Origin: Lysobacterales bacterium
GTDB lineage: Bacteria; Pseudomonadota; Gammaproteobacteria; Xanthomonadales; SZUA-36
Assembly: GCA_013001885.1 (NCBI GenBank)
Contig: JABDLD010000016.1
Location: 1 to 64,000, forward strand
Length of the DNA stretch: 64,000 bases
Direction: 5' to 3'
Below the pieces are notes generated by a model. It saw only the letters and a list, made by a program, of their open reading frames with translations. It had not been told where the DNA came from and did not search any database. Position 1 is the first letter of the stretch. The number at the start of each line of letters is the position of its first letter. The position numbers were made by a program, and so were the translations under genes. Positions 49,519-56,270 of the stretch are shown here, in pieces.

Positions 49519-50430
49519 ATGACGGGCCGTTATCCAAAAATTCTGGATCAGCTGGGCCGCGGTTGTCCGGTGAAACTCGACCGCGTTGGCGGCGGCTGCA
49601 TTGCCGATGCCCGGGTCGCCGTGTTCGCCGACGGCAGCCAGGTGTTTATCAAAACGCTGGAAAACGCGCCGGGAATGTTCGAATGCGAAGCAACCGGGCT
49701 GCGGGAACTTGCCAGGGCCGGTGCAATCCGCGTGCCGGAAGTGCTCGCGGTAGGCAACAACGCGCTGGTGCTGGAATTGATCAGATCAACGGCGCGGCGG
49801 CCGGACTTTTTTGAGTCTTTTGGTCGTGCTTTTGCCCATTTGCATCAATATCATGGTCCGGGCTGCGGCTTTTCCCAGGACAATTTCATTGGCTCCACGC
49901 CTCAGCACAACGCACCGCTGGCTGGTGATTGGGAATCTCTGAGCGGCCGTGCCGACGGCACTGACGACGGATCTTCATGGCCCGGGTTCTTCCTGCAAAG
50001 ACGTTTGCGGTTCCAGGTCCGCCTGGCGGCCGAACGCGGCCACGGTCAGGATCTGACGCGGTTGCTCGATCGGGCAGAGGACCGAATAACCGGATTGCTG
50101 GGCGCCTCGACTGAGCCTCCCAGCCTGCTGCACGGCGACCTGTGGGGCGGGAATTTTATCGTCGATGAGAAAGGCGAAGCCTGCTTGATCGACCCCGCCG
50201 TATATTACGGTCATCGCGAGGCCGATCTGGCCATGACTCGGCTGTTCGGCGGGTTTGAACCCGCCTTTTACCAGTCTTATTGTGAGGTTTCGCCGTTGCA
50301 ACCGGGTCACGAGGAGCGCCTGCCGGTTTACCAGCTTTACCACCTGCTGAACCACCTGAATCTGTTTGGCGCCGCCTACTATTCTCAGTGTTCGCGGATT
50401 CTTCAGCGTTATTCTGAATCTTCAGGCTGA
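49519..50430 (+). CDS. Fructosamine/ribulosamine 3-kinase family protein
   Basis: A 303-residue kinase of the fructosamine-3-kinase family: ATP-site region VGGGCIADAR, FIKTLENAPGMFECEATGL, and the catalytic LLHGDLWGGNFIVDEKG followed by CLIDPAVYYGHREADLAM. Bacterial members mostly phosphorylate ribulosamines or erythrulosamines on proteins, which makes the sugar fall off (deglycation). The ATG at 49519 gives family length; earlier in-frame codons overlap the phosphatase gene. The 3' end overlaps the convergent yceH gene by 22 bases. Confidence 0.9.
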   Translation: MTGRYPKILDQLGRGCPVKLDRVGGGCIADARVAVFADGSQVFIKTLENAPGMFECEATGLRELARAGAIRVPEVLAVGNNALVLELIRSTARRPDFFESFGRAFAHLHQYHGPGCGFSQDNFIGSTPQHNAPLAGDWESLSGRADGTDDGSSWPGFFLQRRLRFQVRLAAERGHGQDLTRLLDRAEDRITGLLGASTEPPSLLHGDLWGGNFIVDEKGEACLIDPAVYYGHREADLAMTRLFGGFEPAFYQSYCEVSPLQPGHEERLPVYQLYHLLNHLNLFGAAYYSQCSRILQRYSESSG

Positions 50431-51047
50431 AGTCGCGTCCTCAGCTGTTCAAGTTCCAGGCGCAGCAATTCCACAGCGTCTTCCAACGCATCCACCCGGC
50501 TTGATAGCCCGCCCGCGGAGGGCCGGCTGCCGGTGTAATCCGCGGGTTCAGGTACTTCAGGCTCGCCACACAACAGATGGGCGTAGCGGATTTCTTTTTG
50601 CCCCGGCTGCCGCGGCAGCGCAGCCGCCAGTGGCGGTTCGTGCTCGGCGAGGCGCTGCAGAGTGTACTGCACATCATCGAGGTCATCGAATTCAAACAGG
50701 CGGTGCGCATGGGTTTTCAGTTCACCCAGTGTCTGCGGGCCGCGCAGCATCAGCGGACACAACAGGGCAAGCCCCTTACTCTGCAGCCCCAGCGCTTTTC
50801 CGGCCTGGTGCTCGTACTTGGGAACCCGCGCGCCCCAGACTTCGGAGACCATTCCCAGAGACTCGAGCTCCCGCAAGGTATGGCCGATGTCGCCCTCGTT
50901 GTAGGCGGTGACGGGGTTTCGCGCCGTTTTCTGGTTACAGGCGTTTTTCAGGCTGTTCAGTGTCAGCGGGTATTGCTCGGGAGTCGTTTCTTTTTTTTCG
51001 ATCAGGCAGCCAAGTACCCTTGCCTGCATGGTGGTCAATTCGTTCAT
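50409..51047 (-). CDS. YceH family (DUF480) protein
   Basis: A 212-residue protein made of two winged-helix-like repeats (about residues 1-80 and 85-165: QARVLGCLIEKKETTPEQYPLTLN, LLCPLMLRGPQTLGELKTH) and a C-terminal coiled coil (about 180-210). This is the DUF480 family exemplified by E. coli YceH; its function is unknown. The ATG at 51047 has AGGA 8 bases upstream. It is the last gene of the operon beginning with the LolA-like protein, 15 bases after the barrel gene. Confidence 0.9.
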   Translation of the reverse strand: MNELTTMQARVLGCLIEKKETTPEQYPLTLNSLKNACNQKTARNPVTAYNEGDIGHTLRELESLGMVSEVWGARVPKYEHQAGKALGLQSKGLALLCPLMLRGPQTLGELKTHAHRLFEFDDLDDVQYTLQRLAEHEPPLAAALPRQPGQKEIRYAHLLCGEPEVPEPADYTGSRPSAGGLSSRVDALEDAVELLRLELEQLRTRLQPEDSE

Positions 51048-51062
51048 GCCCAATGTCCTTTG

Positions 51063-52349
51063 TCAGAAATACCACGCCAGCTGTATAAAAATACTGGCGC
51101 CCGTTGAGAAATAGAGGTCCTCGATAAATGATTCCGTGCCGCCGTACTCCGATCCGTCGGGGCCGACCGGGATATTCAGCGAGCCGAGAATCACCAGGTT
51201 CTGTTGCCAATTGTACTGCACCACCAGCTGGGCCAGCGCGGAGGGATCCTCCAGATTGATAAACAGATTGGGAGTCACCAGCAGCAGCGGATTCATTTCT
51301 ACTGTCGCGGAAGCCGCGAGGTAGTTTCTTGCCAGCGTAAAAAGCTCGCCGCGCTCCAGCCGCCGCAGCAAGTCTGGATTGAGTATCAGGTCGTCGGGTG
51401 AATAGGCGCTGTTTTTCTGTCCGAACCCGTTGAAATAATATTCGATCAGGCCACTGACATTGCGCCCGGCCCAGATCCATGAATAGCTCAGACTTGTGGC
51501 CACGGAAAAAACATCATCGTTGTCCGTTCGGGTCCAGGTGAGATCGCCGCGCCAGATGGCGCCCCCGATGCTGGCGACACCTCCGGCGCCCAACACCAGG
51601 TCCCCGTAGTGTTCCGCTGCCAGCAGGTCGTATTCGTTCTGCCCCTGGAAACCGTGATATTTGAGCGCCGTTGAACGCTGGCCGGATTCGACATCGCCGG
51701 TCAGCGGGTCGCGGCGGATGACGGCGACGGCCTGGAGGTCATTGCCGTTGTCGAAAAGATACTGGCCGTAGAGCATGTCGTCGCCGGTTTTGTACTCCTT
51801 GTCGACCGCAGCCGGGTCGAAAGGATTGAATATGTCCATCGGCGTATAGATCATCCCGTTGCCCCAGCTGATGGCCTGACGCCCAAATCGCAACACGGTG
51901 TGATCGGTTGTGTAGCCGATGCTCACGCGGTCCAGGCGGTGGATGAGCGCGGTTTTGCCGTCGCCTCCGGAAGAATAAGTCAGGTTCCACCAGCGCCTTT
52001 GGTCGCTTACGATGCCGCTGGGTCGTTGCGCGGAGTCGGGAAACCGCCGCGCCAGCTGCAGCGTGTCGGAATAGCTTGCGATGAACTGGTAGTCCAGCTT
52101 GAAGTCCCAGCGGCTTTTTCGTGCGCTGAATTTCAGCCGGGCTTCGAGATTGGTGTCCGCTGCACCGGATCCGAGATAAGGCTCGAAAATGCTGTTCCCG
52201 GGAACATCGATGTAAATGAACTGGTACTTGGTGTGGCCGCCGAAGTCGTAATCCGTTTGTGCTGCCACGGGCAGGATAACGGCACAAAGCAGCAACGCAA
52301 GGAACCCCCGTGAAAGCCGGGGCAGCGGCGGAGGCGTCCGGCGGCTCAT
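51063..52349 (-). CDS. Outer-membrane beta-barrel protein of the LolA-like/ABC operon
   Basis: A 428-residue precursor: signal peptide to about residue 30 (LLLCAVILPVAAQ), then alternating amphipathic strands rich in Tyr, Trp and Asp, ending IFIQLAWYF. A terminal aromatic residue is the usual signal for outer-membrane barrel assembly. Segments such as RVSIGYTTDHTVLRFGRQAISWGNG resemble DUF1302-like or alginate-export-like barrels. The ATG at 52349 lies 1 base after the ATPase stop. As the only outer-membrane member of the operon it may be the exit or acceptor for the cargo. Confidence 0.78.
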   Translation of the reverse strand: MSRRTPPPLPRLSRGFLALLLCAVILPVAAQTDYDFGGHTKYQFIYIDVPGNSIFEPYLGSGAADTNLEARLKFSARKSRWDFKLDYQFIASYSDTLQLARRFPDSAQRPSGIVSDQRRWWNLTYSSGGDGKTALIHRLDRVSIGYTTDHTVLRFGRQAISWGNGMIYTPMDIFNPFDPAAVDKEYKTGDDMLYGQYLFDNGNDLQAVAVIRRDPLTGDVESGQRSTALKYHGFQGQNEYDLLAAEHYGDLVLGAGGVASIGGAIWRGDLTWTRTDNDDVFSVATSLSYSWIWAGRNVSGLIEYYFNGFGQKNSAYSPDDLILNPDLLRRLERGELFTLARNYLAASATVEMNPLLLVTPNLFINLEDPSALAQLVVQYNWQQNLVILGSLNIPVGPDGSEYGGTESFIEDLYFSTGASIFIQLAWYF

Positions 52350-52350
52350 C

Positions 52351-53043
52351 TCATTCCGGGGCCTGGCCCTGGTCGGCAATGACTCGGCCGTCCTGCATCT
52401 TGATCAGCCGGCCCGCGTAGCGCATGACGCGCTCGTCGTGGGTCGAGATGATGAAGGTCACCCCGTGGTGTTCATTCAGTTCCCGGAACAGTTCCATCAG
52501 GTGTTTGGCCGAGACGGAGTCGAGATTGGCGGTGGGTTCGTCAGCCAGCACCAGCTTGGGCTGGCTCACGATGGCGCGGGCAACAGCAACCCGCTGCTGC
52601 TGCCCGCCGGAAAGCTGCGACGGACGGCGGTTTTCCATCCCCTCCAAACCAACCTCGCCAAGAATCGCCATCGATTTATTTTTACGTTCTGCTGCCGGAA
52701 CACCCTGCACCTGCATCACGAATTCGACGTTCTCGCGCGCAGTGAGTACCGGAATCAGGTTATAGGCCTGAAAAACGAAACCGATGTGGTGCAACCGCAA
52801 ATCCGCCAGCGGGCCCTGGCCGAGCAGGTCGACCCGCTGACCGTCGATGCTGATTTGTCCGCTGTCGAGTTCATCCAGACCGCCGATCATGTTCAACAAG
52901 GTCGTCTTGCCGGAGCCCGAGGGGCCCGACAGGCAGACAAATGAACCCTGCTTGATGTCGAGCGAGACATGGTCAAGTGCTTTGATCACGGCGTCGCCCT
53001 GCTGGTAGTTTTTACACAGTTCAACACATTTTATTTCGGCCAT
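52351..53043 (-). CDS. LolD/MacB-type ABC ATPase
   Basis: A 230-residue ATPase with Walker A GPSGSGKTTLL, signature LSGGQQQRVAVARAI, Walker B LVLADEPTANLD and a switch histidine in IISTHDERVM. The subfamily is that of LolD, MacB and FtsE, which drive FtsX-fold permeases that act on the periplasmic side rather than pumping across the membrane. It follows permease B by 10 bases and precedes the barrel gene by 1 base. Confidence 0.92.
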   Translation of the reverse strand: MAEIKCVELCKNYQQGDAVIKALDHVSLDIKQGSFVCLSGPSGSGKTTLLNMIGGLDELDSGQISIDGQRVDLLGQGPLADLRLHHIGFVFQAYNLIPVLTARENVEFVMQVQGVPAAERKNKSMAILGEVGLEGMENRRPSQLSGGQQQRVAVARAIVSQPKLVLADEPTANLDSVSAKHLMELFRELNEHHGVTFIISTHDERVMRYAGRLIKMQDGRVIADQGQAPE

Positions 53044-53053
53044 ATCCGATCCT

Positions 53054-54298
53054 TCAGGTTTTTGCGATGGCTTCGACCGGGCGGTACTGTGAGGCCCGCC
53101 AGGCGGGCAGCAAGCTGGTCAGTATGCCCAGGAGAACAACAACAACGTTCGCCAGAACGATGTCATTGAGGTAGAGCGACGGGTAGAGAACGCTGGATAC
53201 ACCCATCATCTCCATCCCTTCGGCAACGACGGTCAGATCTATACCGTCCCGGATGGGTAGTATGCTGGCGACGGCCAACAGGTTTCCGGCCAGCAAACCC
53301 AGCAGCAGCAGTAACACGGATTCCAGCAGAACCTGGTAACGAATGGCTGACGGTTTCATGCCGAGCGCCTGCATCAGCCCGAATTCACGCACCCGCTCAA
53401 ACACCGCCATCATCAGCGTGTTGACCAGGCCAAAACTCAGGGCCAGGAAAATAACGATCACCCAAACGAGCACGAAACCGTCCATCACGCCAAGCATCAG
53501 ACCCAGATAGGTGTCCAGTTCAGTCCAGGCTTTGACGTCAAGGTCTCCTCCAGCGGCAGTACGCACCTGCCGCAGCAAAGGATCCGCATTACGATAGTTG
53601 CGGCCGGTGATCGCGATTTCTGAAACACGGGCGTCCATCTTCAGCAGCGACTGAACGGTGGACCGGCCGGCATAGATGTAGTTCTCCTCCAATGCCGCCA
53701 GCTTGCCCTTGTACACACCGACAATGCGAAATCCACGGTCGGCTATCTCGTTGCCGGTATCCTGGCTCATCACCACGATGCGCTTGCCCAGATCGGTTTC
53801 GAGGCGTTCCAGCAGCTTGCGGCCGATGACCAGTCCGTTGTCGTCCGTACCCTCCAGAAAACGGCCTTCCACGATACTTCCGGGGTCGAAGCCGAGAACA
53901 ATTTCGCCGGCCGGATCGACGCCCAGCAGCGTCACTCCGCGACTGTCGCGTTCACTTGAGATCATCGCGGGCACTCGGATCCGGGTGGTCCAGCCGGTCG
54001 ACGGCGGACTCTCCAGCGCTTGCAGCAGCACCTGATTGGGCGGCTCCAGGCTGTTTTCAACACTGGGGTCATCGCGGTAGTCCGGGTGATGTATCTGGAC
54101 CAGACCGGGCAGCGCGTCGATGCCGTCCTCGATCATCTGGTCTACCATGCCGCGCATCAGCGCCGTCATGAAGATCATTGCCCACACACCCACCGTGATG
54201 GCCAGCAACATGATCAGCGTACGCCGGTGATTTCGCCACAGATTGCGCCACGCCATGCGCGCCATGGCGCCCAGCGGCAGCCGGTTGGCGGAGGCCAT
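53054..54298 (-). CDS. FtsX-like ABC permease (second of two)
   Basis: A 414-residue protein with the FtsX/LolCE topology: one N-terminal helix after the basic MAWRNLWRNHRRTLIML, a large periplasmic domain (about residues 45-265), then three C-terminal helices in the FtsX domain (LVNTLMMAVFERVREFGLMQALGM). The start overlaps the stop of the first permease by 1 base (TGATG). The two permeases probably form a LolC/LolE-like heterodimer. Confidence 0.9.
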   Translation of the reverse strand: MASANRLPLGAMARMAWRNLWRNHRRTLIMLLAITVGVWAMIFMTALMRGMVDQMIEDGIDALPGLVQIHHPDYRDDPSVENSLEPPNQVLLQALESPPSTGWTTRIRVPAMISSERDSRGVTLLGVDPAGEIVLGFDPGSIVEGRFLEGTDDNGLVIGRKLLERLETDLGKRIVVMSQDTGNEIADRGFRIVGVYKGKLAALEENYIYAGRSTVQSLLKMDARVSEIAITGRNYRNADPLLRQVRTAAGGDLDVKAWTELDTYLGLMLGVMDGFVLVWVIVIFLALSFGLVNTLMMAVFERVREFGLMQALGMKPSAIRYQVLLESVLLLLLGLLAGNLLAVASILPIRDGIDLTVVAEGMEMMGVSSVLYPSLYLNDIVLANVVVVLLGILTSLLPAWRASQYRPVEAIAKT

Positions 54299-55524
54299 CA
54301 GGCGGCCCTCATCGCGTCCACCGGCTGCAGGCGAAACAGGCGCAATGCAGGGTAGATCGAGGCCAGCAGGCAGAACAGAAAGACCACGACCGGTCCAAGC
54401 AGCATGGAAAACGGGGTGACGCTCGGGTACATCTTACCGGGCAGGTTGAATTTGGCCGCGACTTCGTCCATACCGGGGTAGGAAAAGCCTACCGTGTTGA
54501 AATACGCAGCGACCAGCCAACCCAGAAACAGGCCGATTACCAGTCCGATGAAGGCCATCATGGCCGTTTCCAGCATGATAAGCCCGGCCAGTTTGCGCGG
54601 CTTGATACCCAGCGCCGTGATGACGCCGAACTCCTTCGTCCGTTCGAGCACCGCCATCAATTGCGTGTTCAATACGCTGAAAGCCACCAGGACGATCAAT
54701 ACGCCGTACATGAACCATGCGCTGGAAAGATCGGCCTGGATTGCCTGTTTAAGACCGGGGTGCAGACGGGTCCAGTCAAGCAACAGCAAATCTTCGTGAT
54801 CTTTCAATGCCTGCGCCGCCTGGTTGAGCTCCGGTGTCACCTGGTCCAAAGCACTGACGGAAAAAGCGACCGTATTGCCGTGGTCGCCCATCGAAAACAT
54901 CTCCTGGAAATACTTCAGCGGGATTTCTGCGAAGCTGCGATCCATGTCCGGCAGGCCGGAGTTGAAGATTCCGCGAACCGTCAGAATACCGGCGGCGAAA
55001 GAGCCGTCACGTCCGCTGCCGAGCAGCGTGATTTCATCGCCCACACCCACCTTCAGGTTCCTGGCCATCACGCTGCCGATGACGATCTCGGCGGCCCCGG
55101 GGTCGTCCAGAAACGCCCCCTTGGTGACAAGGCCGGGCAGGGTGGATACGCCCGGCTCGAATTCCGGCTGAACCCCGATGACCTGGATGCCGAATGAACG
55201 CTGGTCGCTGGAGGCCAGCGCAAACGCTGCGGCGCGCGCGGCGATCTTCGTATCAGGCATTCGCAGGCGCAGGTCCTGTGCCAGGGCGCCGATGGCGTCA
55301 ATACTGAGCCTCAGCTTCGGATTGTCGTTGTAGCCGGCACGCTGCGCCTGAAAATGCCCGCTGAAGGCCTGCAGCGTGTTATTGATCATCATGTCATAGG
55401 AACCGAACTGCAGCGAGATCATGAAGACCAGCAGGACGTTGGAAAAAATCATCGCCGTGGCCGTCAGCCAGGTACGGCGCTTTTGCCGCCACAGGTTGCG
55501 CCAGGCCAGGCGAAGATTCAGCAT
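54298..55524 (-). CDS. FtsX-like ABC permease (first of two)
   Basis: A 408-residue paralogue of the following gene: basic start LRLAWRNLWRQKRRTWLTA, one helix, a periplasmic domain (about residues 45-265) and a C-terminal FtsX domain containing LNTQLMAVLERTKEFGVITALGI. The ATG at 55524 overlaps the stop of the LolA-like gene by one base (TGATG); the frame is open further upstream to 55617 but that part lies inside the previous gene. It is one half of a presumed heterodimeric transporter. Confidence 0.9.
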   Translation of the reverse strand: MLNLRLAWRNLWRQKRRTWLTATAMIFSNVLLVFMISLQFGSYDMMINNTLQAFSGHFQAQRAGYNDNPKLRLSIDAIGALAQDLRLRMPDTKIAARAAAFALASSDQRSFGIQVIGVQPEFEPGVSTLPGLVTKGAFLDDPGAAEIVIGSVMARNLKVGVGDEITLLGSGRDGSFAAGILTVRGIFNSGLPDMDRSFAEIPLKYFQEMFSMGDHGNTVAFSVSALDQVTPELNQAAQALKDHEDLLLLDWTRLHPGLKQAIQADLSSAWFMYGVLIVLVAFSVLNTQLMAVLERTKEFGVITALGIKPRKLAGLIMLETAMMAFIGLVIGLFLGWLVAAYFNTVGFSYPGMDEVAAKFNLPGKMYPSVTPFSMLLGPVVVFLFCLLASIYPALRLFRLQPVDAMRAA

Positions 55525-56270
55525 CACTGTCTGGGATTCCGAAGATTCGACAGGGTGAACAGGCTGTCGGCCAACTCCAGGTCGAACTCGATTGAGTTCG
55601 CGGTCAGTTGCGTCCACTCATCGAGCGTGTCGACCTTGCCCATCCGCATCACCTTGGCAACGGGGCGGCCGCCCATTTCCTCTATTTCCAGCGTTTTCAT
55701 GGATTTCACCAGGATGCCGTCCTGGTCCCAGAACTGCTGCTCGATCAGCACGAAGTCGTCCCGCACGATGAGGATTTCCTTGCCCCAGACCACGGCGGCA
55801 TCCTCGTGCGGGACGGACTGAATCGTGTAGTGCAGATGTCCGTCACGTTCCTCGGTGCCGAGCAGTTCGTGATCGTACTGGTCGATAATGTCGGTGGACT
55901 TGCTGATGTCCTTGTTGGAAAAATCGCTGCCCATCCAGCTTTGCGACATCATCGATGAGGGGATCTTGATGATGCGGTTTATCCGCGGCGTGAACGTCCA
56001 CATGCTGTTGTCGTTCAGCAAGGTGCCGTTACCGGCGTCCTTCCTGGGCTCGATCACACGCACCAGCGAGAGCTTGTCTCCCTTGCTCCATGAAATCATG
56101 GTCATGGACCGCTCCCAATCGGGCCGGTGGATGGTCATTGTCATGTTGGAGTGGGATGTCATTCCGCGCCAGTGGTCCATGGCTTGTCGGACCAGTTGGG
56201 CGGCATCGGTGACCTGTGAGTGAACGGGGTTGAGAACGAGAATGCCAAGCAGTGCTATGAGCGTACGCAT
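55524..56270 (-). CDS. LolA-like outer-membrane lipoprotein-sorting protein
   Basis: A 248-residue periplasmic protein with a signal peptide (about residues 1-18) and the fold signature of the LolA-like outer-membrane lipoprotein-sorting family. Motifs include MTMTIHRPDWERSMTMISWS, GNGTLLNDNSMWTFTPRINRIIKIP, SQSWMGSDFSNKDI and VWGKEILIVRDDFVLIEQQFWD. Relatives form an open hydrophobic half-barrel that can hold acyl chains. It is the first gene of an operon with two FtsX permeases, a LolD-like ATPase and a barrel protein, so it is probably the periplasmic carrier. It is not the housekeeping LolA, which is shorter and lacks these motifs. Confidence 0.88.
   Translation of the reverse strand: MRTLIALLGILVLNPVHSQVTDAAQLVRQAMDHWRGMTSHSNMTMTIHRPDWERSMTMISWSKGDKLSLVRVIEPRKDAGNGTLLNDNSMWTFTPRINRIIKIPSSMMSQSWMGSDFSNKDISKSTDIIDQYDHELLGTEERDGHLHYTIQSVPHEDAAVVWGKEILIVRDDFVLIEQQFWDQDGILVKSMKTLEIEEMGGRPVAKVMRMGKVDTLDEWTQLTANSIEFDLELADSLFTLSNLRNPRQ

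Follow-up and report, generated by a model that had tools for sequence, protein, structure and literature searches.

The five-gene unit that we describe here, from a Lysobacterales bacterium, encodes a LolA-fold periplasmic carrier, two FtsX-type permeases, an ABC ATPase and an outer-membrane β-barrel, and is separate from the housekeeping lipoprotein-sorting (Lol) genes of its genome. On balance, we favor the reading that it is dedicated to carrying a small hydrophobic molecule, resembling a lipid, across the envelope at the expense of ATP, and that the ABC complex drives export by way of the carrier to the barrel. In this model, the two permeases and the ATPase would assemble into a type VII (LolCDE/MacB-like) complex and draw the cargo out of the inner membrane's outer leaflet. 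Docking onto this complex, the soluble carrier would take the cargo into the greasy groove of its LolA fold, cross the periplasm and dock to the 18-strand DUF1302-type barrel, which would stand in the place of LolB, accepting the cargo and putting it in or through the outer membrane.

The unit lies in a 64,000-nucleotide stretch of DNA (the window) from an assembly of 3.3 Mb in 96 contigs. All five open reading frames (ORFs) are on the minus strand, at 51063–56270, and in transcript order they are:

55524..56270, minus strand: LolA-like periplasmic carrier (PF17131), 248 aa; profile match, structure model and fold search
54298..55524, minus strand: FtsX/MacB-type permease 1, 408 aa, ATG start at 55524; MacB_PCD and FtsX domains
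53054..54298, minus strand: FtsX/MacB-type permease 2, 414 aa; MacB_PCD and FtsX domains
52351..53043, minus strand: ABC ATPase of the LolD/DevA/MacB type, 230 aa; ABC_tran match
51063..52349, minus strand: predicted outer-membrane 18-strand β-barrel, probable remote DUF1302 relative, 428 aa from ATG 52349; AlphaFold model and hhalign

The carrier and permease 1 overlap by one base (TGATG), as do permease 1 and permease 2. A gap of 10 bases separates permease 2 from the ATPase, and a gap of 1 base separates the ATPase from the barrel if the latter starts at ATG 52349 (its frame is open already from TTG 52379). For permease 1, the listed GTG start at 55617 is too early, and ATG 55524 is the conserved start. 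An earlier sequence-only reading of this DNA had proposed the same five genes in the same order, joined by 1-base overlaps or gaps of 1–10 bases; all five ORFs are confirmed, the domain matches and the barrel model agree, and the measured junctions bear out the distances. Promoter and terminator scans gave chance-level results only. A DUF480 (YceH-like) gene on the same strand (50409–51053) begins 9 bases past the barrel and accompanies the unit in close relatives alone.

The unit is conserved across many gammaproteobacteria. When 84,980 species genomes were scanned for the barrel, 413 relatives came up, and 80 of them were kept for neighborhood comparison. These include Woeseiaceae, Halieaceae (Halioglobus, Pseudohalioglobus, Seongchinamella), Cellvibrionaceae and Thiotrichales, and a few metagenome-assembled genomes labeled Thermoanaerobaculia and Albidovulum that may reflect transfer or misbinning. 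Of the retained loci, 58 have 4.8 kb or more of sequence ahead of the barrel, and in 56 of these all five genes share strand and order, which rules out chance neighbors. Among more distant loci of the class, whose barrels are about 20% identical, carrier, permease(s), ATPase and barrel occur together in 18 of 20, and the permease layout varies from heterodimeric to fused (a double permease in four loci: L176, L178, L179 and L180) to single (L177). Searching from the carrier side, we found that the high-scoring carrier clade adjoins FtsX/ATPase genes wherever the contig extends far enough, and that a barrel match is also present in 19 of the 20 genomes with a high-scoring carrier (counted from the search listings). 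The sequence-only reading had hinged on the barrel staying with the other four genes, as it does in both the near and the distant sets.

The exceptions are two partial sets (L075 and L056) and L096, in which the first genes are missing and permease 2 is incomplete. In genome G122, L075 is a full carrier-permease-ATPase set adjoining a barrel fragment, and L059 is an intact barrel elsewhere, adjoining a divergent ATPase and a permease fragment; the two are a rearranged or duplicated unit. L056 (7113–9162) holds an ATPase and a barrel without carrier or permeases, adjoins hydantoinase genes and represents either an orphaned remnant or a system that has been split. Another layout, seen in other gammaproteobacteria (L246, L248, L250, L251, L253, L256), consists of an ATPase, a single FtsX permease, a LolA-like carrier (about 245 aa) and a barrel, and mostly adjoins genes for a LytS-like sensor kinase and a LytTR-like regulator (regulator names assigned by eye).

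No sixth conserved neighbor accompanies the unit, the next commonest family occurring in 11 of the 80 loci. We found no cargo or biosynthetic gene conserved beside it in the 80 neighborhoods, and the neighborhoods compared held no conserved gene for catabolism or for a lipoprotein, LolB-like or otherwise; what had been remarked of the operon itself, that it has no LolB-like lipoprotein, extends to its surroundings. That no biosynthetic genes travel with the unit, and that the related single-permease layout adjoins a sensor pair, would suit a role in envelope maintenance or sensing, in which the module balances an outer-membrane lipid (phospholipid or LPS-related) or reports envelope stress and has no special product. 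We regard this role as quite improbable. Within the order, 24 of 299 genomes have the barrel; its patchy distribution in the class (43 of 369 sampled genomes) argues against general housekeeping, and the two divergent copies in some genomes (G354, G662) suggest separate cargoes.

Both permeases match the MacB_PCD and FtsX domains above gathering scores and are 27% identical to each other. Their best-scoring models are those of LolC/LolE; against TIGR02212 (lolCE) they reach 120 and 110 bits, below the cut-off of 362, which the genome's own Lol permease exceeds at 491 bits. The ATPase matches ABC_tran (E 7e-35) and is 42% identical to E. coli LolD and 36% identical to the genome's own LolD, and its 221 bits against TIGR02211 (LolD) likewise lie below the cut-off of 307.75. 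In LolC, LolA is recruited by the Hook, which we take to be P167–P179. The corresponding span in the window permeases is six residues shorter than in LolC and without prolines; it is equally short in all 129 homologues (65 of permease 1 and 64 of permease 2), and in the genome's own Lol permease it is of nearly full length.

Searches against the genome's contigs recovered a separate LolA (PF03548, C77), LolB (C10) and, on C58, a Lol permease above the family cut-off with a LolD-like ATPase directly after it. These separate Lol genes and the absent Hook rule out the unit as the main Lol system. The sequence-only reading had taken the unit for a parallel, self-contained route, provided that other Lol genes existed, and the separate Lol set together with the conservation of the barrel with the other four genes bears this out. 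Its further idea, that the barrel takes over from LolB as acceptor or exit, stands here as a putative role. At the C58 locus (L062), the single Lol permease found above the cut-off is followed by LolD and a ComEC-like gene, and the main Lol system of the genome may be of the LolF-type homodimeric kind. The five-gene unit thus resembles LolCDE-LolA-LolB in having an ABC extractor with a LolD-like ATPase and a LolA-fold carrier, but it has no Hook, no LolB, a barrel of its own, and permeases and an ATPase that score under the family cut-offs. It resembles MacAB-TolC in its MacB-type permease domain and ATPase, but has a soluble carrier and an 18-strand barrel, with neither a MacA adaptor nor a TolC gene among the five genes.

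The carrier matches PF17131 LolA_like (E 9.2e-47, 159.5 bits against a gathering score of 30) and shows no match to the LolA family PF03548. It has a signal peptide, judged by eye, and no cysteine, and therefore should be soluble rather than a lipoprotein. In a fold search with its structure model (pLDDT 90.6), the nearest solved structure was 9tp6, LolA3 of Porphyromonas gingivalis (Z 26.5 over 224 residues), a protein from another phylum at 25% identity. The entries 4z48, 3bk5 and 3buu gave Z 25–26, compared with Z 12–14 for classical LolA and 10–14 for LolA/LolB overall. P. gingivalis LolA3 binds the LolB of its own cell only very weakly (PMC13103446), and by analogy this would fit carriers of the PF17131 kind working without LolB.

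The barrel protein has no Pfam (E 0.1) or NCBIfam match, and a PDB sequence search with its profile returned nothing convincing. Its AlphaFold2 model, built from 17 sequences (pLDDT 87, pTM 0.81), has 18 strands, and the closest solved folds are OprD/Occ (Z 23–24) and AlgE (Z 22–23), with rmsd values of 2.7–4.0 over about 300 residues. The OprD/Occ and AlgE Pfam families match neither the window barrel (E 0.1) nor 23 relatives, and no Omp85 barrel is among the fold matches listed, a list that in itself excludes nothing. An invariant motif, GRQ-x-x-x-WG, and the stretch that follows it resemble DUF1302. In hhalign comparisons, the close barrel family aligned with RND-type DUF1302 at 93%, and the wide family aligned with two DUF1302 proteins at 95.9% (E 5.5e-9 over 233 columns, these E-values applying to single pairs and not database-wide), compared with 0.4–5% for the controls OmpF/OmpC/PhoE and ChiP. 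Both of these DUF1302 proteins adjoin LolA-like genes, and one (L235) also adjoins an MMPL gene. Pfam DUF1302 is matched directly by 5 of the 23 distant barrel members (best 5.5e-6), and MMPL-linked barrels match the profile of the ABC-linked barrels at 50 and 29 bits. Together, these comparisons suggest that the barrel is a remote relative of DUF1302.

As candidate cargoes, the sequence-only reading had named a special lipid, a glycolipid or a lipoprotein. If the last were correct, the ABC complex would extract a subset of lipoproteins, the LolA-like protein would carry them and the barrel would insert them or flip them to the cell surface. The LolD-type ATPase, with its identity to E. coli LolD, the LolC/LolE models that score best for the permeases and the LolA fold of the carrier are in keeping with such a specialized route, and a similar proposal exists for Borrelia. 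We nevertheless consider it unlikely, and that part of the earlier proposal weakened, because the Hook is absent from the homologues of both permeases, the PF17131 carrier is not of the LolA (PF03548) lineage, its nearest solved relative binds LolB so weakly (PMC13103446), no cargo gene or lipoprotein neighbor is conserved, and an 18-strand OprD/AlgE-like barrel, as modeled, would suit a small molecule better than a lipoprotein. For the Borrelia cluster BBJ23-29, a role in ABC/LolA export was put forward in 2026 (PMC13078400). Like our unit, this cluster groups a type VII permease and an ATPase with a LolA-like carrier and an outer-membrane barrel, but its barrel is described as Omp85-type, its permease is homodimeric, it includes two TPR proteins and one protein of uncharacterized function, and the hypothesis comes from models only. 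TPR partner genes are not conserved with the five-gene unit, and we regard BBJ23-29 as a looser analogue.

Closer parallels are found among systems powered by RND or MMPL pumps. AmeABCD of Castellaniella defragrans comprises an RND pump, a DUF1329 protein and a DUF1302 barrel, and AmeB is needed for normal growth on monoterpenes (PMC6394551). The Pseudomonas putida proteins PP_0765/PP_0766/PP_2018/PP_2019 likewise combine an RND pump with DUF1329 and a DUF1302 barrel and are needed for growth on Tween 20, and the DUF1329 carrier is predicted to contact both pump and barrel (PMC10866462). Growth on long-chain alkane raises the levels of an MMPL/LolA-like protein and its porin-like neighbor in Thalassolituus (PMC6304351). 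In P. gingivalis, genes for a TetR regulator, an MMPL protein, an 'outer membrane lipoprotein-sorting protein' and a hypothetical protein are among the most induced under hemin limitation (PMC10470040, Table 2), and the last of these genes may encode the barrel of an RND-powered version.

AmeABCD and PP_0765/0766 share with the five-gene unit a LolA-fold carrier (DUF1329, LolA superfamily), a DUF1302-type barrel and one energized inner-membrane pump. They differ in having an RND/MMPL pump and a further periplasmic protein, whereas the unit has two FtsX permeases and an ATPase and no RND/MMPL pump gene, and the carriers are of different lineages. RND/MMPL pumps are proton-driven. In a tree of 57 carriers, ABC-linked and RND-labeled sequences fall on two sides of one branch with a single change of partner, a count that leaves aside three RND-labeled rows for which the stretch read showed no MMPL gene alongside. 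The long branch separating the two sides calls for caution. By analogy, then, we take the unit to be the ABC-powered sister of the RND/MMPL–LolA-like–DUF1302 systems. The combination of a LolA-fold carrier, a DUF1302 barrel and an RND pump is known already; the ABC-powered version appears new, as the literature searched holds no description of an FtsX-FtsX-ATPase version with a DUF1302-type barrel, although absence there is no proof. The sequence-only reading knew of no characterized system of this five-part make-up, which stands for the ABC version, while the RND-powered systems and the Borrelia analogue are published relatives. At L060 (C67), the genome of the window itself also has RND/MMPL, YCF48-like, DUF1329 and DUF1302 genes, flanked on either side by wax ester synthase/DGAT genes and accompanied by an acyl-CoA ligase-like gene: an RND version alongside the ABC one, perhaps serving wax or related lipids.

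The parallel with AmeABCD and PP_0765/0766/2018/2019 is the main argument that the cargo would be a hydrophobic small molecule. A point against small-molecule export is that no substrate gene travels with the unit, and in the literature searched we found no relative of this exact permease pair acting on small lipids. The outward direction is suggested by the known actions of type VII ABC proteins: to our knowledge, characterized FtsX/MacB-type members extract, export or signal, and none imports. Import would instead have the barrel take up a hydrophobic compound that the carrier delivers to the inner membrane for insertion by the ABC complex. The need for the RND relatives in growth on hydrophobic compounds (monoterpenes and Tween 20) and the induction of the P. 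gingivalis genes under hemin limitation would also fit uptake, and the barrel fold resembles the OprD/Occ uptake channels. With no importer that we know of among characterized type VII ABC proteins and no catabolic gene conserved nearby, however, import seems rather unlikely, and ATP-driven export of a hydrophobic small molecule remains the reading we prefer.

Little is known of how the periplasm is crossed by hydrophobic molecules other than LPS, phospholipids and lipoproteins. A compact ATP-driven unit of five genes with its own soluble carrier and barrel, present in cultured Halieaceae among others, makes this question testable, and it links the PF17131, DUF1302 and DUF1329 families by one possible mechanism. 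It also warns that sorting lipoproteins may not be the task of many genes annotated as 'outer membrane lipoprotein-sorting protein'. More tentatively, LolA-fold carriers and DUF1302-type barrels could define, across diderm bacteria, a general and as yet unnamed class of transporters that take hydrophobes through the envelope. The barrel would serve as outer-membrane acceptor in LolB's place, and the energy module would be interchangeable, being either an FtsX-type ABC complex (with two, fused or single permeases) or an RND/MMPL pump. If true, one transporter class with interchangeable energy modules would be the more interesting result.
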